NCBI GenBank assembly: GCA_017431395.1
Contig: JAFRLD010000096.1
Span: 1 to 10,451 of the forward strand
Direction: 5' to 3'
Length of the DNA: 10,451 nt
Source of the DNA: Bacillota bacterium
GTDB taxonomy: Bacteria; Bacillota; Clostridia; Peptostreptococcales; Anaerovoracaceae
Shown here in pieces: positions 265 through 10,451 of this stretch. Each line of letters starts with the position of its first letter. Position 1 is the stretch's first letter. The notes under the pieces were generated by a model. That model searched no databases, was not told where the DNA came from, and saw only the letters and a list, made by a program, of their open reading frames with translations. The position numbers and the translations under genes are program-made.

Positions 265-1293
265 TTATTTGATCTCGTGGATCCAGCCTTCCGGTGCTTC
301 CACCGTACCCATCTGGATGCCGGTCAGCGTGTCGTACAGCTTCTTGAGGGTCGGTCCCATCTCATCCATGCCGCTCGGGAACGCGATCTCGGTGCCGTGA
401 TCGTTGATCTTGCCGACCGGGGAGATGACCGCTGCCGTACCGCAGAGCCCGCACTCAACGAAGTCCTTGACCTCATCGAACGCGACCATCCGCTGCTCGG
501 TCTCCATGCCCAGGATATCCTTAGCTACGATCATCAGGCTTCTTCTGGTGACCGATGGCAGGATCGAATCGGACTTGGACTGCGGTGTGATGACCTTGCC
601 GTCCTTCGTGATGAAGATGAAGTTGGCGCCGCCGGTCTCTTCAACATAAGTTCTGGTCGCTGCGTCCAGATACATGTTCTCGGAGAAACCTTCCTCATGG
701 GCCAGCTCACCGGCATAAAGACTCATGGCGTAGTTCAGACCAGCTTTGATGTTTCCTGTGCCGTGCGGGGCCGCTCTGTCATAATCAGATACTTTGATAA
801 CGATCGGCTTGATGCCGGCCTTGAAGTCCGGGCCGACCGGCATGCACAGCATGCGGAACTCATCCTCAGGTGCAGGGGCGACTCCGATGATCGGGCCGCT
901 GCCGTAGATGAACGGGCGGACATAAAGCGTCGCTCCGCTGCCATATGGCGGGACCCATTCCTCATTGGCCTTGACCAGCATATCCAAAGCCTGCATGAAC
1001 ATCTCCTCAGAGACTTCCGGGATCGCCAGCCGTCTCGCGGAATCGATCATCCTCTGCGCATTCAGGTCCGGACGGAAAGTGACGATCTTCCCATCTTCGG
1101 TCCGGTATGCTTTCAGTCCTTCGAAGACAGTCTGTGCATACTGCAGTACTCCTGCGCACTCGGAAATGTGGACCTGCGAATCCGTTGTCAGTTCCAGATC
1201 GCTCCATTTGCCATCCTGCCACTTGGCTGTCACACGGTAATCTGTCGGCTGATAGGTAAAGCTCAGACTACCCCAATCAATGTTTTTTGCCAT
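265..1293 (-). CDS. ilvE: Branched-chain amino acid aminotransferase
   Basis: A 342-residue fold-type IV PLP aminotransferase. It interconverts leucine, isoleucine and valine with their 2-oxo acids, using 2-oxoglutarate/glutamate, in the cytoplasm. The sequence matches the longer type II branched-chain aminotransferases: N-terminal YQPTDY, QTVFEGLKAYR near residues 54-64, LYVRPFIYGSG at 123-133, GTGNIKAGLNYAMS at 178-191 with K183 the likely PLP lysine, and VEETGGANFIF at 217-227, the cofactor-phosphate segment. Length is normal for the family and no frame break is seen. The ATG at 1293 has AAAGGAG about 8 nt upstream. A 112-nt spacer with a candidate promoter and palindrome separates it from the malic enzyme gene, and an intrinsic terminator follows, so it may be its own unit. 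Which direction it works in vivo (synthesis or catabolism) is not shown by the sequence. Confidence 0.93.
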   Translation of the reverse strand: MAKNIDWGSLSFTYQPTDYRVTAKWQDGKWSDLELTTDSQVHISECAGVLQYAQTVFEGLKAYRTEDGKIVTFRPDLNAQRMIDSARRLAIPEVSEEMFMQALDMLVKANEEWVPPYGSGATLYVRPFIYGSGPIIGVAPAPEDEFRMLCMPVGPDFKAGIKPIVIKVSDYDRAAPHGTGNIKAGLNYAMSLYAGELAHEEGFSENMYLDAATRTYVEETGGANFIFITKDGKVITPQSKSDSILPSVTRRSLMIVAKDILGMETEQRMVAFDEVKDFVECGLCGTAAVISPVGKINDHGTEIAFPSGMDEMGPTLKKLYDTLTGIQMGTVEAPEGWIHEIK

Positions 1294-1324
1294 AAATCTA
1301 TATCTCCTTTCGGTTGAGTACTAT

Positions 1325-1345
1325 ATGACTCATTTTATCACAGTA
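1325..1345 (-). promoter_or_regulatory. Weak candidate promoter for ilvE
   Basis: On the minus strand a TAAAAT hexamer (1337-1332) matches the -10 consensus at 5 of 6 positions, and would give a transcript start about 30 nt before the ilvE ATG. No good -35 hexamer lies at 16 to 18 nt. The call rests mainly on the spacer length and AT content, so it is tentative. Confidence 0.35.
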
Positions 1346-1364
1346 ACACAAGGCGGAGTTGATT

Positions 1365-1385
1365 TTTTTGTATAATATACAAAAA
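1365..1385. promoter_or_regulatory. Perfect 21-bp AT-rich palindrome, candidate operator
   Basis: TTTTTGTATA, a central A, then TATACAAAAA: a 10-bp perfect inverted repeat around position 1375. It sits in the gap between the malic enzyme stop (1406) and ilvE, upstream of the candidate ilvE -10. The core TTGTATA/TATACAA has the size and symmetry of a site for a dimeric repressor, and TTGTATACAA-like sites are known for some GntR-family regulators. No regulator gene is in the window. It is a poor terminator: no GC stem and no T tract of its own. Confidence 0.5.
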
Positions 1386-1405
1386 TTCCTCTCCCCTTTC
1401 GCCGG

Positions 1406-2584
1406 TCACTCCCTGGCCACGCCGGATTCTCTGGCTGCCTGGGCCACCGCGGCTGCGACCGCCGGGCCGACCCGCGGATCAAATGCCTTAGGAATGATAT
1501 AATCCGCGCAGAGTTCCTCCTCAGAAATGAGCTCCGCCAGAGCTTTCGCCGCCGCAAGCTTCATCTCCTCATTGATGTCGCTGGCATGGGCATCGAAGGT
1601 CCCCCGGAAGATCCCCGGGAAAGCGAGCACGTTGTTGATCTGGTTCGGGAAGTCCGAACGGCCGGTGGATACCACCGCTGCTCCTGCTGCTTTCGCCTCG
1701 TCCGGGAAGATCTCCGGCGTCGGATTGGCGCAGGCGAAGATGATGGGATCGCGGTTCATGGACTCGACCATTTCCTTCGTCACGAGCCCCGGTGCCGAAA
1801 CACCGATGAACACATCCGCGCCGACCATGGCATCCGCCAGTGTTCCTTTCATCCCCTCTTTGTTCGTGACCTTGGCCACGACATCCTTGATCCAGTTCAT
1901 GCCCCTCACCCGGCCTTCATAGATGATGCCGGTACGGTCCGTCATGATCACATTCTCGTAGCCGGCGGATAACAGGATCCTCGTGATCGCTACCGCGGCT
2001 GCCCCGGCTCCGGAGGTGACGATCTTCACGTCCTCCTTCTTTTTGCCGACCACCTTCAAGGCATTGGTCAGACCGGCCAGAGTGATGACCGCCGTCCCGT
2101 GCTGGTCATCGTGAAAGATCGGGATATCGCATCTCTTCTTAAGCTTTCGCTCGATCTCGAAACATCTGGGAGCGCTGATGTCTTCCAGATTGATCCCGCC
2201 GAAGGAGCCGGAAATATTATAGATCGTCTCCACAAACTCATCGACATCCTTCGTCTTCACGCAGATCGGGAAGGCATCCACATTGGCGAATGACTTGAAC
2301 AGCACACATTTCCCTTCCATCACGGGCATCCCTGCCTCTGGCCCTATGTCCCCGAGTCCGAGCACCGCCGATCCATCGGTCACCACCGCACACATATTGG
2401 CGCGGCGCGTCAGCGTATAGCTTTTTGAAATATCCTTCTGGATCTCGAGGCAGGGCTGCGCCACCCCGGGGGTGTACGCCAGGGACAGGTCCTCTTCATT
2501 ATGTACCGGTACCGTCGCTATGACCTCGATCTTGCCATCCCACTCTTCTTTGTGGAGCCGCAGGGACTCTTTCGCGTAATCCAT
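1406..2584 (-). CDS. Malic enzyme (oxaloacetate-decarboxylating malate dehydrogenase)
   Basis: A 392-residue cytoplasmic enzyme that oxidatively decarboxylates L-malate to pyruvate and CO2 with NAD+ or NADP+. Visible family motifs in order: AYTPGVAQPCLEI (36-48) with the catalytic Tyr37, MEGKCVLFK (89-97) with the likely catalytic Lys92, the metal-binding acids in NLEDISAPR (E134, D135) and FHDDQHGTAVI (D159/D160), the dinucleotide-binding GAGAAA (192-197), FACANPTPEI (283-292) and NQINN (314-318). Length fits the short bacterial, single-domain malic enzymes; there is no phosphotransacetylase-like extension as in MaeB. The ATG at 2584 has GGAGG about 7 nt upstream. It is the last gene of a tight operon, 23 nt after the LarA-type racemase, which suggests malate is a common metabolite of the two. 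Coenzyme preference cannot be read securely, so no maeA/maeB-type symbol is given. Confidence 0.93.
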   Translation of the reverse strand: MDYAKESLRLHKEEWDGKIEVIATVPVHNEEDLSLAYTPGVAQPCLEIQKDISKSYTLTRRANMCAVVTDGSAVLGLGDIGPEAGMPVMEGKCVLFKSFANVDAFPICVKTKDVDEFVETIYNISGSFGGINLEDISAPRCFEIERKLKKRCDIPIFHDDQHGTAVITLAGLTNALKVVGKKKEDVKIVTSGAGAAAVAITRILLSAGYENVIMTDRTGIIYEGRVRGMNWIKDVVAKVTNKEGMKGTLADAMVGADVFIGVSAPGLVTKEMVESMNRDPIIFACANPTPEIFPDEAKAAGAAVVSTGRSDFPNQINNVLAFPGIFRGTFDAHASDINEEMKLAAAKALAELISEEELCADYIIPKAFDPRVGPAVAAAVAQAARESGVARE

Positions 2585-2607
2585 TCTTTTCCTCCGTATT
2601 ATTCTTC

Positions 2608-3861
2608 TTATCGCATTACCGGCAGGGTCGCTCCGCCAAACGGCATCACGATGATCCTTGCCTCCGGCCCATGTTTGCTCATGGCTTTCGCAAAGGCTGG
2701 TTCCAGCTGGTCGAACGGTTCCATGAAGATGGACCGAACGAAGTCAGGCTCCATCTCAGAAACTAAGCTGATGTCCGCGCGCTTCAGGATCTGCGCGATC
2801 GCTGCTGCCTTATGGCCGCCCAGCCGGAAATTCACCCGGATCCGTTCGATCAGGTCCTCCGGCCGCTCAGCAGCTGTCATCCATTCCTCGAAGACCGCAG
2901 ACCCCATCCCCTCGTGGCATGAACCCACGACGATGATGGTCCCTCCGTCCTTGATCGCATGCTTCGCGTTATCCAGCGCTTTTTGCGTCTGATAGAGATT
3001 CGCGTCCTTCGGTGCTCCCCCCTGGGAAACGATGACGATATCCGCCTTCTCCGGGATCGCGACCTGATACAGGCTGTCCAGAAATGCGCATCCCGCTCTA
3101 TGGGCTTCCTTCACATCCCCGGCCACAGCATGGACGATCTTCTTGTGCTCATCCAATACGACGTTGAGGATGAAATCGATCCCGCAGACGGCTGCCGCCT
3201 CATCGATATCCTGGCGCAGTGGATTGGTATCCATATTTCCGGCGTGCGCCCGCTCATCCACCATCATGGAATGGTTCGCCTGGATCACCTCAGGGGTCGA
3301 AACACCAGGAAACAGAGCTTTCGCTCCTCCCGAATAGCCCGCGAAGTAATGATATTCGATATTCCCGACACAGATGCGCCGGTCCGCCCGGGCGACCATC
3401 TCCATGATATCGATCGGCGTGCCGCGGGAGGTCGTTCCGAGATGGATGCAAGCCTCCGGGTCCGAATCGATGCACCGGATCTCGCGCCAGGCCCTTTCCC
3501 CGGCCAGATGCCTGCGTTCTTCTTCGGTCTGCTGCCTGTGTGAGCCCCGCGCGAAGACCAGAGTGATATCCGACGGGTCTGCCCCTGCTTCATACAGTTC
3601 ATCAAGAAGCGCCGGCATGACATCCCAGGTCGGCATTGGCCTCGAGATATCGCTGGTCATGATCGCGATCTTCTCTCCCGGCTGAATGATCTCTTTTAAT
3701 GCAGGGGAGCCGATCGGATGAGCCAGCGCCTCCCGCACGGCTTCCTCCCCTGCCGGACCCGCGTCCTGCGGCGCGGGATTCGCCCGAAGGATCTTGATTA
3801 TATTTTTCTCCGGGATCTCTACCGACTGGACTGAGTTCCCGTATCCGACTTCGATCTTCAT
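2608..3861 (-). CDS. larA: LarA-family nickel-pincer 2-hydroxyacid racemase
   Basis: A 417-residue member of the LarA (DUF2088) superfamily, which inverts the C2 centre of 2-hydroxyacids by a hydride mechanism using a nickel-pincer nucleotide bound to a lysine. Key residues match the Lactobacillus plantarum enzyme closely in position: SDISRP (70-75, Asp71 and Arg74), GSHRQQT with His108, EYHYFAGYSGGAKALFPG (169-186) with His171 and the cofactor lysine Lys181, NHSMM with His197, and YQTQKAL with Tyr290 and Lys294. It therefore looks active rather than degenerate. Family members act on lactate, malate, phenyllactate and other acids; the substrate is not decided by these motifs. Position directly before a malic enzyme gene favours malate by inference. 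No larB, larC or larE is visible here, although the cofactor needs them. ATG at 3861 with AGAGGAA upstream; 16 nt after the GTPase fusion gene. Confidence 0.85.
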   Translation of the reverse strand: MKIEVGYGNSVQSVEIPEKNIIKILRANPAPQDAGPAGEEAVREALAHPIGSPALKEIIQPGEKIAIMTSDISRPMPTWDVMPALLDELYEAGADPSDITLVFARGSHRQQTEEERRHLAGERAWREIRCIDSDPEACIHLGTTSRGTPIDIMEMVARADRRICVGNIEYHYFAGYSGGAKALFPGVSTPEVIQANHSMMVDERAHAGNMDTNPLRQDIDEAAAVCGIDFILNVVLDEHKKIVHAVAGDVKEAHRAGCAFLDSLYQVAIPEKADIVIVSQGGAPKDANLYQTQKALDNAKHAIKDGGTIIVVGSCHEGMGSAVFEEWMTAAERPEDLIERIRVNFRLGGHKAAAIAQILKRADISLVSEMEPDFVRSIFMEPFDQLEPAFAKAMSKHGPEARIIVMPFGGATLPVMR

Positions 3862-3877
3862 ATATTCGTTCCTCTGA

Positions 3878-4861
3878 TCAGAATGTGGCGACCTCCGGCT
3901 GACATGGTGCCACCTTGGTCACCTTCGAGCAATACATGACCGGTCCGACCTCCTCATAGATCGGATCGTATTCATTCCTGACCCTTGCCCGGACCTCGAC
4001 CCACGTGCCGTTCTCAAGCTTCGCGGTTTTTTTCTCATCGCATCTGCAGAGCAGGCCCGCGAACTGGATGTCGGCTTCACAGCAGGTCATCACGTGCCGG
4101 CCAAAAATGAATTTCCCCGGAGGGATCTCATCTCCGACGACCGCCCTGCCTTTTATGATGATCTCCTTGCCTTCATAAGCATCCTGGTTCTCGTTGATGT
4201 CCCGGTACCATTCCGCGAAATCCTCATCCTTGATGTCTAGACGTTTCTTGGTCATATCGTATGGCAGCGGATCCTGGATGTCATCCATCATGATATCGTT
4301 CGGCCCGAACTCATAGATGATCTGGGACTTCCGGTTTGCCACGCGGCAGATCTTATGCACCTGCATCTGCCAGTCCTCGAAGTTTTCGTCCTTCTTGCAC
4401 CGGTTAAATGCGACCATCTCCGCCCCCTGCAGCTGCTCGAAGGTCAGCTGCCGGATGTTCTGGTTGTACATGAGGAACGTGCCCGCGTCCGCCAGCATGA
4501 CCTGCTGGTAGATCATCCATCCGAGCGGCATGTTCTCATAAAGGCTGGACAGGCTCCACATCCCGTTCCATTCGATGATGACCCGTGTCGGTTTATACTT
4601 TTTTCTCAGCGAGGTCATCATGAAGGTGCTGAGGTCCTCCTCCGCTTCGATCGGGAAGACCGTCACGGTCTCTCCGCCTTCGGTATAGAACCGGTCCTGA
4701 TCGTATTCCACCTCTCCGTCTTCGCAGAGCAGGAGCAGGGTATTCTCCCCTTCACCGAAATCCCGGCTCTCCAGCGCGTCCTGAATAAATGTCGTCTTCC
4801 CCGCATCGAGGAATCCGGTAAACAGATAGACCGGCAGTTCCTCCGGCATATTCATTGGCAT
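3878..4861 (-). CDS. Divergent CobW-like G3E GTPase fused to a YcgQ/DUF1980-like domain
   Basis: A 327-residue protein of two parts. Residues about 9-210 resemble a G3E P-loop GTPase of the CobW family: Walker A GFLDAGKTT (16-24), followed by a CEDGEVEYD stretch equivalent to the usual NEFGExGxD. Other hallmarks have drifted: the GCxCC metal motif is absent, the E(T/P)SG segment reads IIEWNG (95-100), and the guanine-specificity NKxD region reads FNRCKKDE (152-159). Residues about 228-320 resemble the C-terminal part of the YcgQ/DUF1980 (TIGR03943) proteins: GKEIIIKG, then RHVMTCCEADI with Cys260-Cys261, and TWVEVRARV. In other Bacillota that domain sits in a separate protein encoded beside a permease and often near CobW genes. 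A role in metal delivery or sensing is inferred. The ATG at 4861 has AAGGGA upstream; Met3 or Met5 are alternative starts. It lies 18 nt after the histidine-rich GTPase gene. Confidence 0.75.
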   Translation of the reverse strand: MPMNMPEELPVYLFTGFLDAGKTTFIQDALESRDFGEGENTLLLLCEDGEVEYDQDRFYTEGGETVTVFPIEAEEDLSTFMMTSLRKKYKPTRVIIEWNGMWSLSSLYENMPLGWMIYQQVMLADAGTFLMYNQNIRQLTFEQLQGAEMVAFNRCKKDENFEDWQMQVHKICRVANRKSQIIYEFGPNDIMMDDIQDPLPYDMTKKRLDIKDEDFAEWYRDINENQDAYEGKEIIIKGRAVVGDEIPPGKFIFGRHVMTCCEADIQFAGLLCRCDEKKTAKLENGTWVEVRARVRNEYDPIYEEVGPVMYCSKVTKVAPCQPEVATF

Positions 4862-4879
4862 ATCACAGATCCCTTTCTC

Positions 4880-5887
4880 TTACAGCTCAAACAGTTCTTC
4901 GATCGCATCCTTCTCCAAACCGACTCCGATAACGCAGATCAGTCCTGTGGTCTCTGCGGTTCCCATTCTGACCTCCGGCTCACCCGGCACATAGTCGAAG
5001 TGGATCCACTGTCCGTCTTCGCCCTCTACGATACCTTTCGCGCGCAAAACCTGGCCATATTCGCCGAAATTACCGAGGGCAGCAAGCGCCTGCTCGATCT
5101 GCTCTGCCGTGAACTTGTGGGCCGTATATACGCCGAATTCATCAAAGATCTCATCCGCATGGTGGTGGCCATGGTGATCATGGTCGTGATCATGGTGATG
5201 ATGTTCGTGTTCATGGTCATGGTGGTGATGGTGGTGCTCCGCTTCATGGGCATAGGCTTCCTCGCGCAGTTTGTCGAGCTCTGCGGAGAGAGTTTTTTTC
5301 TGCTCCATCGTCTCCAGGATCGCTTTGCCATCGATCTGATCCCATGGGGTCGTGACGATCGCCGCGTGATCGTTGTATTTTCTGAGGAGTTCAATGCATT
5401 TGTCCAGCTTTTGCTGGGACAGGCCGTCGGTATGGCTCAGAATGATCGAGCTCGCATGCTCCACCTGGTTCTGATAGAACTCCCCGAAATTGGTCATGTA
5501 GACTCTGGCCTTTTTCGCGTCGACGACCGTGGTGAATCCGTTGAGCTGGATCCGGTCGTTCTTCAGATCCTGCACGGCGATGATCACATCGCTGAGCTTG
5601 CCGACGCCCGACGGTTCGATCAGGATCCGATCCGGATCATATGTGTCGATGACCTCGTTCAATGCCCTGCCGAAATCCCCTACCAGGGTGCAGCAGATGC
5701 AGCCGGAGTTCATCTCATTGATCTGGACGCCTGTCTCCTTGAGGAATCCGCTGTCTACGCCGATCTCACCGAATTCATTCTCGATCAGCACGATCTTCTC
5801 ATCCTCATAAGCCTCTGCGATCAGCTTCTTGATCAGCGTCGTCTTGCCGGCGCCGAGAAATCCTGAAAAAATATCTACTATTGCCAT
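4880..5887 (-). CDS. CobW-family G3E GTPase with a histidine-rich metal-binding loop
   Basis: A 335-residue putative cytoplasmic metallochaperone GTPase of the COG0523/CobW family. Visible features in order: Walker A SGFLGAGKTT (8-17), ENEFGEIGVD (36-45), the metal-binding SGCICC (61-66), the Walker B-associated EPSGVGKLSD (91-100), a histidine-rich stretch from His214 to His243 (19 His in residues 218-243, mixed with Asp and Glu), and a C-terminal CobW_C-like domain from about 250 to the end with FTAEQIEQAL and HFDYVPGE. The base-recognition NKxD motif is replaced by SHTD at 151-154. His-rich loops in this GTPase class (HypB, UreG-type and CobW proteins) bind nickel, zinc or cobalt. First gene of an operon with a second G3E protein and a nickel-type racemase, so nickel handling is a reasonable inference; zinc is the main alternative. 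ATG at 5887 with AAAGGA upstream. Confidence 0.88.
   Translation of the reverse strand: MAIVDIFSGFLGAGKTTLIKKLIAEAYEDEKIVLIENEFGEIGVDSGFLKETGVQINEMNSGCICCTLVGDFGRALNEVIDTYDPDRILIEPSGVGKLSDVIIAVQDLKNDRIQLNGFTTVVDAKKARVYMTNFGEFYQNQVEHASSIILSHTDGLSQQKLDKCIELLRKYNDHAAIVTTPWDQIDGKAILETMEQKKTLSAELDKLREEAYAHEAEHHHHHHDHEHEHHHHDHDHDHHGHHHADEIFDEFGVYTAHKFTAEQIEQALAALGNFGEYGQVLRAKGIVEGEDGQWIHFDYVPGEPEVRMGTAETTGLICVIGVGLEKDAIEELFEL
5159..5236 (-). repeat. CAT/CAC-GAT codon-repeat tract encoding the His-rich loop
   Basis: A 78-nt low-complexity tract of CAT, CAC, GAC/GAT and GAG codons inside the first CobW-type gene, encoding 19 histidines in 26 residues. On the plus strand it reads as a run of atg/gtg triplets, giving a spurious methionine- and valine-rich reading frame. 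Such tracts can change length by slippage, so strain-to-strain variation in the loop is expected. Confidence 0.85.
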
Positions 5888-5926
5888 AATCTATCGATCC
5901 TTTCTGCTTATTCTCATACAGAGTAC

Positions 5927-5935
5927 AGTATACCA
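5927..5935 (-). promoter_or_regulatory. Extended -10 promoter for the GTPase-racemase-malic enzyme operon
   Basis: The minus strand reads TGGTATACT: a -10 hexamer TATACT (5932-5927, 5 of 6 consensus) with the upstream TG of an extended -10 element. Spacing gives a leader of roughly 30 nt before the ATG at 5887. No good -35 is visible; that position is occupied by the T tract of the preceding terminator. The same GTGGTATACT string occurs before the alcohol dehydrogenase gene. Confidence 0.7.
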
Positions 5936-5942
5936 CGATTCC

Positions 5943-5981
5943 AAAAAAAAGAAAGACATCAAAAGAACAATGATGCTTTCT
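5943..5981 (-). terminator. Rho-independent terminator of the upstream alcohol dehydrogenase unit
   Basis: On the minus strand AGAAAGCATCA (5981-5971) pairs with TGATG-T-CTTTCT (5961-5950): 11 base pairs with one bulged T and a 9-nt loop, followed at once by a run of T residues (to 5943). It closes transcripts coming from the alcohol dehydrogenase and small membrane protein genes, and sits immediately before the promoter of the next operon. Confidence 0.82.
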
Positions 5982-6030
5982 GTTTACTCCATTCAAGGTT
6001 TTCGGACGCGGCGCTGCCGGCCTTGCCGTA

Positions 6031-6144
6031 TCAGCCCGCAGAAGCGATGCCCATGACCACTCCGGCTACGCCCATGAAAACACAGAACAGTATAAATAAG
6101 ATAAACAGGATCGCCCGTTTCGGGCTGGAAAAAAACTGTTTCAT
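6031..6144 (-). CDS. Small single-span membrane protein, 37 residues, unknown function
   Basis: A short frame starting MKQFFSSPKRA, followed by an unbroken hydrophobic segment at about residues 11-34 rich in Ile, Leu, Phe, Val and Gly, and ending IASAG. It has the charge pattern of a one-pass membrane protein with the basic N-terminus (Lys2, Lys9, Arg10) in the cytoplasm. The C-terminal half has small-residue spacing (GxxGxxxG: Gly25, Gly28, Gly32) that could support helix packing. The ATG at 6144 has a good ribosome site, GGAAGGGA, about 6 nt upstream, and begins 12 nt after the alcohol dehydrogenase stop. The intrinsic terminator follows after the TGA at 6031, so it is the last gene of that unit. 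No homologue is recognised. Position, ribosome site and hydrophobic profile support it as real; a chance frame cannot be fully excluded. Confidence 0.68.
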   Translation of the reverse strand: MKQFFSSPKRAILFILFILFCVFMGVAGVVMGIASAG

Positions 6145-6156
6145 GCTTATCCCTTC

Positions 6157-7284
6157 CTACAGCGGTGTGACCTTCTTCAGGATCCCTTCTATATCTTCCG
6201 CAGTAACCTTTCTCGGGTTGGTCTTCGTGCAGGCATCCGCGAGTGCTGCTTCGATGATCGAATCTTTTTGCTTCATGACCTCCTGAGGATCGATGCCCAG
6301 TCCCTTAAGGTTCATCGGGATCCCGAAGCTGCGCTTCATCCCCTCGATCCTGCGGGAAAGTCCGGTCACGGCTACCGTCACATCGGTATAAGGAAGCCCG
6401 ATGAGCTTCGCCATCCGCTGAAGCTTCCTGGCGCAGATCGTCTTCTCACTGTTGGTGAGGTCTGCGTTAAAAAGGATCACCTCCGGCAGAAGCATCGCAT
6501 TGCTTCTCCCGTGGGAAATATGGAATTTCGCCCCGATCGCATGGGCAATGCTGTGGCAGAGTCCGATCCCGGCGGTATTAAAGGCCATCCCTGCGAGGCA
6601 CGCCGCGTTATGGACTTTTTCTCTGGCCAGCAGGTCCTCTCCATTCTGATAGGCCATCGGGAGGAACTTCATCAATAATGTGACCGCCTTCTCCGAAAGC
6701 GCGTCCGTGAAGTCCGTTGCCTCGATCGACACATATGCCTCGAGCGCATGCGTCAGAGCATCCAGCCCTGTGTCGGCTGTGATCGACGGGGGCATCGTCT
6801 TGACCAGGTCCGGATCCAGGATCGCTACCATCGGCTGCAGTTCCTGATCGATCAGCGGGTATTTGACGCCTTCCCTCTTATTGGTGATCACGGAGAATTT
6901 CGTGACTTCAGAGCCTGTGCCGCTGGTCGTCGGGATGGCGAAGCACTCCTCGATATTGGTCAGTCCGAGCCGGTGTCCGATCACGCGGATCGCTTTCGCC
7001 GCATCTATGGCAGAACCACCGCCCACAGCGATCATCACCTCGGCCTGCACCTCATTCAGGCACTGGATCCCCTCTGAAACGACTTCGATCGGCGGATCCG
7101 GCACCGTCTTGCTGAACACGCTGATCTGACAGCCGTTCAGATGGGCCTTGATCTTGTCGACCACACCGGACTTCACCATGAATTCATCGCATATGATTAT
7201 GACACGCTTGCCCTGCACCTGATCCAGGCGGTCAAGACAGTTCTCTCCGAAAAAAACATTCGTGCTGATATTGAATTCTTTCAT
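6157..7284 (-). CDS. Iron-containing alcohol dehydrogenase (group III, PduQ/EutG-like)
   Basis: A 375-residue cytoplasmic NAD(P)-dependent oxidoreductase that interconverts an aldehyde and a primary alcohol. Family hallmarks: coenzyme-binding VGGGSAIDAAKAI (87-99), PTTSGTGSEVT (118-128), and the metal ligands Asp175 and His179 in GLDALTHALEAY, His244 in GLCHSIAHAIG (His248 is the usual second histidine near the catalytic site), and His258 in HISHGRSNAMLLP. Length and the N-terminal FGENCLDRL resemble the 1-propanol/butanol dehydrogenase branch. All ligands are present, so it should be active; the coenzyme and chain-length preference are not readable. It follows the acyl ligase gene by 61 nt and has its own candidate promoter, and is followed by a small membrane protein gene. 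In context it may reduce the aldehyde produced by the LuxC-like reductase, or serve general fermentation. ATG at 7284 with GGGGAGG upstream. Confidence 0.92.
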   Translation of the reverse strand: MKEFNISTNVFFGENCLDRLDQVQGKRVIIICDEFMVKSGVVDKIKAHLNGCQISVFSKTVPDPPIEVVSEGIQCLNEVQAEVMIAVGGGSAIDAAKAIRVIGHRLGLTNIEECFAIPTTSGTGSEVTKFSVITNKREGVKYPLIDQELQPMVAILDPDLVKTMPPSITADTGLDALTHALEAYVSIEATDFTDALSEKAVTLLMKFLPMAYQNGEDLLAREKVHNAACLAGMAFNTAGIGLCHSIAHAIGAKFHISHGRSNAMLLPEVILFNADLTNSEKTICARKLQRMAKLIGLPYTDVTVAVTGLSRRIEGMKRSFGIPMNLKGLGIDPQEVMKQKDSIIEAALADACTKTNPRKVTAEDIEGILKKVTPL

Positions 7285-7345: not shown

Positions 7346-8716
7346 TCAATCCTGCAGTTTCAAATCTGTATAGATCGTTTTGCCGGAAGTATTCCTCGGG
7401 ATCTCCTCGATCTCATGGACCGTGACCATATTCTCCCGGATCCCCCAGCGGTCCCAGAAGGTCTGCAGAAGTGTATCTTCATCCACAGAAGATGCTTTCG
7501 GGCTCTTCCACACCTGGACCCCATGGTCATCATCCCCGGTACAGACGATGTCCGGCGTATCGAAGGCTTCCTGCAGATCATCCTGGAGCTGGTCCAGACT
7601 GATCCGCTTCCCATAGAGCTTGATGAAACGCTTCTTTCGTCCGGAAATATAGAGGTATCCTTCCTCATCGCGATAAGCGATATCCCCCGTCTCGAGGCGG
7701 CCTCCGTTCTCATCTTCTTTGGCGAGATCCTCCCGGCAGACGGCATACCCCATCGATACATTGTCGCCGTAATAGATCAGTTCCCCGCTGATCCCCGGAT
7801 CTTCGATCACATCCCCGGATACATCCAGCAGTTCGATCCTGCCGCCCGGTATGGGGATCCCGATGCTCCCGATCTTCTCAAGACATCTCTCCGGCGGGAT
7901 ATAGCTCATACGGGCGGTGGCTTCCGTCTGCCCGTACATGACGAAGAACCTGCGGCCGGTCTCCTCCGCCCACCTGCCCATCTGCTCCTGCAGGTCTGCC
8001 TTGAGGTGCCCTCCGGCCTGGGTCAGGGTCTTCAGGGAAGGAAGGTCCATCCGCTCAATGCGGAGTCTTCGGAGCATCTCATAGGAATAAGGCACGCCCG
8101 CCAGGGATGTGGCACGGTGCTCCGTGACCAGTTCCCAGAACTTCGGATCGAAGAAGGTACGGTCCGTCAGGATGATCGATGCGCCTACGGCTGCATGACT
8201 GTGGATCACAGAGAGTCCGTAGGTATATTCCATCGGCAGCGTCGTGACCGGCCGTTCCTCCGCATCCAGCGAAAGGTATTCCACGATGGATGCGCAGTTG
8301 GCCTGCAGATTCTCATAGCTCAGGCGGACCAGCTTTTGGGCCCCCGTGCTCCCGGAGGTGGACAGAAGAAGACCCAGATCCGGGTGGACTTTGACCGGCT
8401 CCTCCGAAAATGGTTTCGCCCCGTTTTCATCGATCACGAAGGCGGGCCGGTAAGTCTCTTTCATCCGCTCGATCAGCTCCGGCTCCGTCGTCCGCCCCAT
8501 CAGGATCACGGGGCAGCGTTTCCGGAGCAGGGCCAGATAGCTTCCCACACTCGCCACATCGTTTCCCGCAAGCAGCAGACAGAGCGAGCGGCGCGGGATC
8601 TTCGCCAGGGCCGTGTCCCCGATCTCCCAGACCTGTCCATAGGTATAGGTCCTGCCGTTTTCATCTATGCAGAAAATATGATTTTTGTACGATTCGTTCT
8701 TCTCAAAAAAATACAT
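7346..8716 (-). CDS. AMP-forming acyl ligase (short ANL-family adenylating enzyme)
   Basis: A 456-residue enzyme of the acyl-CoA synthetase/adenylation-domain superfamily, which activates a carboxylic acid with ATP as acyl-AMP and transfers it to a thiol (CoA or a carrier protein). Motifs in order: P-loop LLSTSGSTGAQKLV (117-130), YGQTEATARM (261-270), GDIAYRDEEGYLYISGR (344-360), the hinge/late motif KLYGKRIS (366-373), and PRNTSGKTIYTDL (440-452) with the likely catalytic Lys446. It is shorter than typical fatty acyl-CoA ligases (about 500-560). The frame is open further upstream to 8770, but that start would lie inside the previous gene and lacks support; ATG 8716 has CGGAG about 9 nt upstream and lies 4 nt after the LuxE-LuxC stop, implying translational coupling. 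Partner genes suggest it supplies activated acyl groups to the reductase, or loads a carrier protein. Substrate unknown. Confidence 0.85.
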   Translation of the reverse strand: MYFFEKNESYKNHIFCIDENGRTYTYGQVWEIGDTALAKIPRRSLCLLLAGNDVASVGSYLALLRKRCPVILMGRTTEPELIERMKETYRPAFVIDENGAKPFSEEPVKVHPDLGLLLSTSGSTGAQKLVRLSYENLQANCASIVEYLSLDAEERPVTTLPMEYTYGLSVIHSHAAVGASIILTDRTFFDPKFWELVTEHRATSLAGVPYSYEMLRRLRIERMDLPSLKTLTQAGGHLKADLQEQMGRWAEETGRRFFVMYGQTEATARMSYIPPERCLEKIGSIGIPIPGGRIELLDVSGDVIEDPGISGELIYYGDNVSMGYAVCREDLAKEDENGGRLETGDIAYRDEEGYLYISGRKKRFIKLYGKRISLDQLQDDLQEAFDTPDIVCTGDDDHGVQVWKSPKASSVDEDTLLQTFWDRWGIRENMVTVHEIEEIPRNTSGKTIYTDLKLQD

Positions 8717-8720
8717 AGCA

Positions 8721-10451
8721 TTACTCCGATAGCTCAGCAATAAGGTCTTTGCGGTCCCAGACCGTATCAAACTCCAGCGCCTCTCCCGGGTAGACCGCCC
8801 GGTCGAGTCCCGGCCGTCCGGACTCCCTGGCCATTTGCAGGAGCTCCGCGGGATCAGATCCGACGCAGACCGCGGTCTGGATCTTTTGGCCCAGAAGCGG
8901 CATCAGCTGTTCCATCCGCTCGAGGTCAAACTCATAGAAGATTCCGAGCTTCGCTTCCGGCAGCGACCGGTCTTCCCAGTCTCCCGCCTTCCCGCAGGGC
9001 ACGACATAAAGCCGGTTCGTCCAGGTCTTCACCGGCTGCAGTCCGCTCACCTCCGCATAAGCCCGGCAGAGGATACGGTATTTCTCGGTGGCCATCCAGG
9101 GCTGCAGCTCATATCTTCCCGCTTCTTCTGCGACAGCGCCCCACCAGCGTTCCTTCACCTCTTCCGATGGTTCCAGCCAGAAGACGCTCCTCGGGCTGGA
9201 GCATGCATTCTGATCGGCTCCGTAAGTATCCCTGCAGAACCGGTCCGCCTGCAGATGCAGTTCGTCCTCTGACAGCTGACGGATGGCCTTGGCATCGAGG
9301 ACCGCTATGGAGTACTTGTCCGGGAACGGGATATCCACGGTCTTCTCTCCCGCAGGTACGCTGCAGATCCGCTCCACGGTGGCATCCCCGCCCCAGATCA
9401 TCCGTGCCGCTGCTCTCCCGGAGACCTCCTCAAGGGCTTCGTGGTCACGCGGGAAGCGCACGAATGCGTTCCGCCTGTGAAGGGGCTCGTATTCTTCCCG
9501 GGCCAGAAGGGCAGCGATCCCTTGCAGGATGTTATCGCTGATCACTGACTCCTTTCCCGAAAGCCGCACGACGCCGCCGTTTCCGGCCAGCAGGCCGGTG
9601 ATCCAGGAGTAAGCGAACATCGTTGGCATATTGGACGGGGCTATATGCAGGACGAGCCCGCGGCCATGGCGGTCCTCCTTCCCGGCGCCCCAGGCCTCCT
9701 GCTGCCGGCGGCAGATCTGTTCCAGATGCGCGCGCCTGCACCAGAACCCGAGGGCATAGATGTCGGGATACTGCCGGTAGGCAGGATCTTTCATAAAGAG
9801 CTGGGACAGGTCCTCCAGAAATGACATCACCAGAGGATCAAAGCATTTCACCGGCTCCTCCTCCGGAGGCCAGGTCCCGGCGAGGACCTGCAGACCTTCC
9901 CCGGCAGCAGAAGGCGCCGCGTTCTCCGCGAAGGTGTCGCTGCAGCCGCGGATCTCCGCCTTGCGGATCCGTCCCTCGACCTTAAAAACCTTCCCCTTTC
10001 TGCCGCAGGGGCAGTTATCCGTTCCGAGGATCCTGCCGCTGTCTTCGGTCAGAAGCAGGTGTCCGGGATAGGATCCGGGCAGCCAGCTTCGAAGCGCGAT
10101 GAGACCCAGCTCACCTTCTTTGCAGGGGGTGAAGTCCAGTGGATCCAGCACTTCGATGTCCGAATAGATGCTCGCATGCAGATGTCCCTCGGGGCACTGC
10201 ATGAAGATGCTCCCGGTCTGCTCCGCCATTCCGTAGTAATCACTGACCTGCTCGATCCCGCAGACCTGGCGCAGCGTCTCCCGAAAGACTTCATCGGACA
10301 CCTTCTGGTTCTGCAGCTTCTTCCAGCCTCCGCCATGGATCAGATAGCAGTCCTTCAGATCAAGGCACTTCCCCTCGCGCTGCAGAGCCTGCACGAGATA
10401 CGCCCAGATCATGAACGTGAAACCGAAGGCGAAGGACGGTCCAGCTTTTGC
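8721..10451 (-). CDS. LuxE-LuxC fusion: acyl-protein synthetase and acyl-CoA reductase, 5' end missing
   Basis: The open frame runs to the right edge, leaving 576 visible residues. Visible residues 1 to about 165 match the C-terminal part of LuxE acyl-protein synthetases: GPSFAFGFTF (5-14), HGGGWKK (39-45), YYGMAEQTG (72-80), a CPCGRKG segment and KAEIRGCSD. The rest (about 200-570) matches LuxC acyl-CoA/fatty acid reductases: HIAPSNMP (268-275), IWGGDATVERI (352-362) and DQNACSSPR (413-421), with Cys417 the likely acyl-thioester nucleophile. In luminous bacteria LuxE and LuxC are separate subunits (with the thioesterase LuxD) of the complex that makes long-chain aldehyde for luciferase. Here they are one polypeptide and no luxA, luxB or luxD is seen. 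The missing 5' part should hold the rest of the LuxE domain; an internal ATG at 10412 is not the true start. The ligase gene follows 4 nt later. Confidence 0.85.
   Translation of the reverse strand, partial: AKAGPSFAFGFTFMIWAYLVQALQREGKCLDLKDCYLIHGGGWKKLQNQKVSDEVFRETLRQVCGIEQVSDYYGMAEQTGSIFMQCPEGHLHASIYSDIEVLDPLDFTPCKEGELGLIALRSWLPGSYPGHLLLTEDSGRILGTDNCPCGRKGKVFKVEGRIRKAEIRGCSDTFAENAAPSAAGEGLQVLAGTWPPEEEPVKCFDPLVMSFLEDLSQLFMKDPAYRQYPDIYALGFWCRRAHLEQICRRQQEAWGAGKEDRHGRGLVLHIAPSNMPTMFAYSWITGLLAGNGGVVRLSGKESVISDNILQGIAALLAREEYEPLHRRNAFVRFPRDHEALEEVSGRAAARMIWGGDATVERICSVPAGEKTVDIPFPDKYSIAVLDAKAIRQLSEDELHLQADRFCRDTYGADQNACSSPRSVFWLEPSEEVKERWWGAVAEEAGRYELQPWMATEKYRILCRAYAEVSGLQPVKTWTNRLYVVPCGKAGDWEDRSLPEAKLGIFYEFDLERMEQLMPLLGQKIQTAVCVGSDPAELLQMARESGRPGLDRAVYPGEALEFDTVWDRKDLIAELSE

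Follow-up and report, generated by a model that had tools for sequence, protein, structure and literature searches.

A LuxE-LuxC fusion protein beside an AMP-forming ligase in an Anaerovoracaceae genome and its probable role in carrier-linked acid reduction

On contig JAFRLD010000096.1 (labelled C121) of a rumen-type gut bacterium (Bacillota, family Anaerovoracaceae), a single reverse-strand reading frame encodes a protein in which a LuxE-like acyl-protein synthetase domain is fused to a LuxC-like acyl reductase domain, and this gene is directly followed by one encoding an AMP-forming acyl ligase. The window analysed here is the entire contig, 10451 bases in length. The protein probably converts some acid to an aldehyde for a purpose other than light, and on balance we favor the view that the locus forms the 3' portion of an operon encoding a carboxylic-acid reductase system based on a carrier protein, which would work like luxC-luxD-luxE without light. 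The features on which this view is built are the following.

8721..10451, minus strand: LuxE-LuxC fusion gene; 576 amino acids (aa) read with no stop before the window end, 5' end cut by the contig edge; Pfam LuxE and LuxC above cut-off.
9924..10427, minus strand: LuxE-like adenylating domain, C-terminal half, aa 9-176; PF04443 profile positions 213-388 of 391; corresponds to 7xc6 chain E by sequence.
9942..9944, minus strand: codon TGC of Cys170, the acyl-accepting LuxE cysteine by alignment; present in 46/46 ungapped rows and aligned with GCS of 7xc6 LuxE.
9879..9953, minus strand: linker between the domains, holding the LuxE cysteine; disordered in the protein model of the related locus L034; placed via the aligned cysteine, 3' edge approximate.
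8724..9884, minus strand: LuxC-like reductase domain, about aa 190-576; PF05893; corresponds to 7xc6 chain A by profile and by fold.
9201..9203, minus strand: codon TGC of Cys417, the catalytic LuxC cysteine by alignment; present in 46/46 ungapped rows and aligned with DQQAC of 7xc6 LuxC.
7346..8716, minus strand: AMP-forming acyl ligase of the ANL superfamily, 456 aa; PF00501 (E 2e-38); many ANL structures matched.

The presence of LuxE and LuxC in one polypeptide, proposed in an earlier reading of this DNA (the original prediction), is borne out by profile searches, which place PF04443 over the N-terminal part at aa 9-176 (E 9e-29; score 100.9 bits, cut-off 24.9) and PF05893 at aa 257-426 (E 5e-22; score 78.7 bits, cut-off 21; profile positions 82-241 of 401). 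Both catalytic cysteines are kept, as the acyl cysteine of LuxE (GCS) and that of LuxC (QxAC, here DQNAC) align with those of the solved complex 7xc6, the LuxC-LuxE fatty acid reductase of Photobacterium phosphoreum. The window protein resembles this enzyme in having both domains and in the fold of its reductase half, and it differs in being fused and in its low identity to LuxC, 14% in the Foldseek match. The ATP-binding loop of LuxE, TSSGTTG, keeps its glycine in 42/44 ungapped rows, one of the exceptions being a probable misaligned LuxC row. In the model of the L034 protein, the predicted local distance difference test score falls below 50 at residues 345-369, a stretch which includes the LuxE cysteine, residue 348. 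PaaK-type adenylating enzymes (2y27 and ClxA, 9s3l) load CoA or other acceptors, and the window domain is set apart from them by the LuxE acyl-cysteine tail in which it ends. The equivalog for luminous LuxE, NF052244 of NCBIfam, is not reached by this protein, which is cut at its 5' end (35.8 of 550 bits). Likewise, no match to the luciferase family PF00296 was found in the organism's own genome (79% complete), the same search being positive in 10/14 control genomes, so the LuxE-LuxC pair does appear without a luciferase, as had been anticipated. The locus further departs from luminous systems in the presence of the ligase and, in relatives, of a carrier protein.

The own genome is fragmented (1.61 Mb in 255 contigs) and the window is a whole contig, and consequently the sequence upstream of the fusion cannot be read there. 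A profile search returned one LuxC match in this genome, and no trace of the missing 5' part of the fusion gene was found on its other contigs, a failure which says little given that the assembly is 79% complete. A frame break upstream of 10451, which would have undermined the fusion, is not expected, since a complete single frame of 736-822 aa spanning both domains is unbroken in 15 of 37 genomes of the same genus, the own genome included. At the other end, the fusion stop codon ends at 8721 and the ligase ATG lies at 8716, which gives the gap of 4 nt originally described; a longer frame of the ligase might start from TTG at 8770.

The genes missing from the window can be examined in relatives. 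A total of 330 related loci were confirmed in named genomes, and the counts of loci given here refer to the best 80 of these 330, which are those nearest to the fused query; 19 belong to the genus and 61 lie outside it. Of the 37 genus genomes, 19 carry LuxE/LuxC and 18 do not. Neighboring genes were called mechanically and each cluster was named from one representative, with some neighbors missed, for example in L094. The common order in the genus is a MaoC-like dehydratase, an 81-aa carrier-like protein, a metallo-beta-lactamase (MBL)-fold hydrolase, LuxE-LuxC and the ligase, often followed by an aldo/keto reductase with 4Fe-4S motifs (AKR). Called frames were obtained in the 19 genus loci for the ligase in 18, MBL in 17, MaoC in 12 and AKR in 12, some contigs ending inside the operon. 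In 72/80 loci a co-oriented ligase of the same cluster lies less than 1 kb from LuxE or LuxC, and the carrier-like protein was found by tblastn in 70/80, with the serine of its WDSxxH motif kept in 70/70. At E <1e-28 the carrier is present in 17/19 genus genomes with LuxE/LuxC and in 0/18 of the others (Fisher p 1e-8), the two exceptions being G006 and the own genome, in which the contig stops at the fusion. A carrier loaded by the ligase had been suspected from the window alone, and these counts supply a candidate for it. The neighborhood, conservation of which had been proposed as a check, is thus conserved in its core of ligase and carrier, and this does not extend to the iron-containing alcohol dehydrogenase considered below, which is no conserved partner. 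Two different adenylating domains side by side had appeared redundant; a ligase near LuxE/LuxC in 72/80 loci together with a carrier to be loaded bears on this puzzle and makes redundancy improbable: loading of the carrier may fall to the ligase, and LuxE would supply LuxC. As a separate observation, genes resembling NuoE, NuoF and NuoG/GltD oxidoreductases precede the cassette in the same orientation in up to 12 genus loci (L037, at 1083-6879, and others such as L043-L045, L049 and L050); they are absent from the 10 kb stretch of L034, which is close to the window.

In lux systems, release of the fatty acid from its carrier is the task of LuxD, followed by activation by LuxE and reduction by LuxC. 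From the domains, cysteines, linker and gene set observed here, we infer a comparable series of reactions. The AMP ligase (7346-8716) would activate an acid and attach it to the small carrier whose gene lies upstream in relatives, and the MaoC-like dehydratase would then alter the carrier-tethered acyl chain. The MBL-fold hydrolase would free the acid, thereby taking the part of LuxD in light organs; this is the weakest step. The LuxE half would re-adenylate the acid and hold it as a thioester on Cys170, which alignment and model place in the flexible linker, and the linker would pass the acyl group to Cys417 of the LuxC half, assigned by alignment, where it would be reduced to the aldehyde, presumably with NADPH. 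Finally, the AKR, encoded nearby in 12/19 genus loci, or here perhaps the iron-containing alcohol dehydrogenase, might reduce the aldehyde to an alcohol.

Several observations weigh against this scheme. The upstream genes of the own locus were removed by the contig edge and are supplied here from its congeners, and in the available contigs of the own genome (79% complete) no carrier match was found and MBL gave only 29-34% matches elsewhere. Genus loci without a called frame amount to 2/19 for MBL and 7/19 for MaoC, partly owing to contig ends. Of five carrier copies scanned with PF00550, only that of L086 exceeded the cut-off (24.2 against 20.8 bits); those of L045 and L110 remained below it at 15.5-17 bits, that of L100 matched only PF14573, below its cut-off, and that of L034 gave no match at E 0.001. 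When the MBL protein is compared with solved structures, the top two hits are of unassigned function, hits 3 to 6 are hydroxyacylglutathione hydrolases, thioesterases of the glyoxalase II kind, and beta-lactamases come lower, so that calling it a thioesterase is a guess. The last step is loose because the window has no counterpart of the AKR found in the nearest relative. In addition, the LuxE chain of 7xc6, matched by sequence, is not among the rows shown by two fold searches, of which VIA-align gives one chain per entry.

The alternative that fares best, which we nevertheless regard as unlikely, is that the carrier passes the acyl group directly to the LuxE cysteine or to LuxC, so that no free acid is formed and MBL only clears stalled carriers. 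It would fit with the carrier being more widespread (70/80 loci) than the MBL cluster (30/80, 17/19 in the genus). The conservation of the TSSGTTG glycine in LuxE noted above argues against it, as adenylation looks to be needed.

A second alternative relates the cassette to surface glycans, and it brings in the closest published gene sets. In the portions of PMC7874193 that deal with the group II flagellin glycosylation islands of Aeromonas, a carrier, a 3-oxoacyl-(acyl carrier protein) reductase, an AMP-dependent synthetase, luxE and luxC are described, and comparable portions of PMC4875605 and PMC7575072 describe the same kind of gene set in enterobacterial flagellin glycosylation islands and in Dickeya zeae, respectively. 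The role assigned there to the lux-like genes is deduced by homology, with a liposugar as a possible product (PMC7874193). The core of carrier, AMP ligase, LuxE and LuxC described in these sources is the one met here in the congeners, the window itself holding only the ligase and LuxE-LuxC. In those descriptions the genes are separate, lie amid glycosyltransferase and flagellar genes and are accompanied by FabG; the genus cassette, in contrast, has MaoC, MBL and AKR genes. Outside the genus, 45/61 loci also hold aminotransferase, NeuB, GT2, transketolase, thiamine diphosphate (ThDP) enzyme or hexapeptide-type genes, and most of them therefore belong to the glycosylation-island kind. On these grounds the cassette could be thought to decorate flagellin or a surface glycan by supplying a sugar with an acyl or aldehyde component, as proposed for Aeromonas and Enterobacteriaceae. 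In the genus we consider this improbable, since the same clusters of glycan markers are found in 0/19 loci and flagellin gave no match in 36/37 genomes, the own genome included, the sole positive, G036, being without LuxE-LuxC. Strong NeuB matches occur in just 2/37 genus genomes (G006 and G011, the other matches being below 60 bits), though one of these, G006, has a diverged, split LuxE/LuxC pair. The flagellin, NeuB and locus-marker counts thus gave no support to delivery to a flagellin or nonulosonate glycan in the genus. In the genus, a known cassette whose core gene set had already been published takes a form that lacks glycan genes and has LuxE joined to LuxC; among openly licensed papers, we found none assaying such a cassette.

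Other observations on these relatives deserve mention. In G036, two weak carrier copies (38-45% identity) share contigs C6 (about 29 kb apart) and C17 (about 6 kb apart) with flagellin genes, with no LuxE-LuxC in this genome. Ten Rhizobium plasmid records, such as CP090119, hold LuxE/LuxC relatives at 35-37% identity, and 9/10 are annotated as acyl-CoA reductase and long-chain fatty acid--CoA ligase, the tenth being partly hypothetical. A ThDP enzyme (cluster c12) is present in 14 relatives and the C half of a transketolase (c10) in 16, all of them outside the genus. LuxC beside ThDP carboligases recurs, and the aldehyde may be the substrate of these enzymes. Loci L066 and L082 each have two LuxE/LuxC pairs with split transketolase genes between them, which suggests two different reductions in one pathway.

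The third alternative involves a further gene of the window:

6157..7284, minus strand: iron-containing alcohol dehydrogenase, downstream of the ligase with a 61 nt gap; PF00465/PF25137.

This dehydrogenase is possibly a co-transcribed neighbor. As a dedicated partner it was rejected, since orthologues at >=58% identity occur in 7/19 genus genomes with LuxE-LuxC and in 4/18 without, and in 6/7 of the former, all but the own genome, the orthologue lies on a different contig from LuxE-LuxC, in assemblies that are fragmented. Among the loci inspected, it is linked to LuxE-LuxC only in the window and in L034, the nearest relative. A fermentative acid-to-alcohol route, in which the fusion and this dehydrogenase dispose of reducing power, could draw on their close spacing on one strand, on the linkage in L034 and on the NuoE, NuoF and NuoG/GltD-like genes upstream of the cassette in the genus, but it is very unlikely in view of the distribution of the orthologues, the AKR sitting between ligase and dehydrogenase in L034, the oddity of a dedicated carrier protein in bulk fermentation and the lack of association in the genus of an HpaB-family gene (11/14 versus 7/11, 25/37 genus genomes searched).

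The carrier-based acid reductase being retained as the preferred interpretation, the fusion itself can be placed among its relatives. It had been seen as exceptional, a view which does not hold: 37 of the 80 loci are fused, 40 are split and 3 have no clear state, with the fused share perhaps overstated because these loci are the nearest to a fused query. In the split loci the LuxE and LuxC genes are adjacent and often overlapping. In a quick tree of 78 rows (the window, 37 fused and 40 split, with L092, L094 and L104 left out and a single very long branch, that of L096), a group formed by the window, L033, L034, L035 and L065 (Shimodaira-Hasegawa-like approximate likelihood ratio test, 99) falls within a genus clade of 20 rows (100). 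The fused or split label needs 6 changes on this tree, at least 5 of them by well-supported branches, from which it follows that fusion arose or was lost repeatedly. The LuxE-LuxC fusion is therefore not rare.

The Megasphaera loci L090, L097, L102 and L110 resemble those of the genus in their order of MaoC, carrier, MBL, LuxE, LuxC and ligase, and are likewise without glycan markers. They differ in having LuxE and LuxC as separate overlapping genes, in a MaoC with an N-terminal extension bearing a CGGC motif, and in genes for sigma-54 (rpoN) and a PAS sigma-54 activator after the ligase, rpoN having been identified in L090 and the activator in L110, with the remaining loci assigned by cluster. 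The plus strand of 26 loci was scanned for TGGCAC-N5-TTGCW, with >=9/11 matches and with GG and GC required. This gave 38 sites against 29 in one shuffle, and most sites are consequently due to chance. In Megasphaera, sites upstream of the cassette were found at 7466 in L090 (11/11), at 7461 in L102 (11/11) and at 4650 in L097 (10/11), and none above the threshold in L110; the Megasphaera cassette looks sigma-54 controlled. The same control in the genus was rejected, as only 1/19 loci (L044) has a site within 600 bases before the first cassette frame, and this site is inside a coding gene. In all four Megasphaera loci the cassette is divergent from a CoA-transferase-type gene and an HpaB-family gene, which we take to be that of 4-hydroxybutyryl-CoA dehydratase. 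A link with 4-hydroxybutyrate fermentation is unsupported in the genus by the HpaB-family counts given above.

Elsewhere in the window, at 2608-5887 on the minus strand, a nickel-pincer malate racemase of the LarA type (LarAH6 model, 572 bits, cut-off 500) comes after two CobW-type GTPases, of which one has a long histidine-rich stretch and the other is joined to a DUF1980 C-terminal domain, and the next gene beside this group encodes malic enzyme. The group looks like one for metal supply and D-malate use.

In a broader and more tentative proposal, which we put forward as possible while giving it less credence than the reading of the locus itself, carrier, ligase, LuxE and LuxC would constitute a general, unnamed aldehyde-making module, a non-luminous counterpart of luxCDE with MBL standing for LuxD in many members. 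It would occur in organisms whose record titles cover a dozen phyla and would serve different pathways. The aldehyde may be coupled to a sugar by a ThDP enzyme or a split transketolase in many loci; in the rumen genus and in Megasphaera the module would act apart from glycan genes and make some small metabolite, and the fusion would represent a recurrent swinging-arm version. LuxC and LuxE are usually regarded as luminescence enzymes, and their wide occurrence in carrier-linked form among anaerobes of the gut would make enzymatic acid-to-aldehyde reduction common there. If true, it would explain the two adenylating enzymes per locus and open a testable way toward the acyl or aldehyde moieties suspected in flagellin glycans. 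The fused form provides a single-protein model for the movement of the acyl group from LuxE to LuxC.

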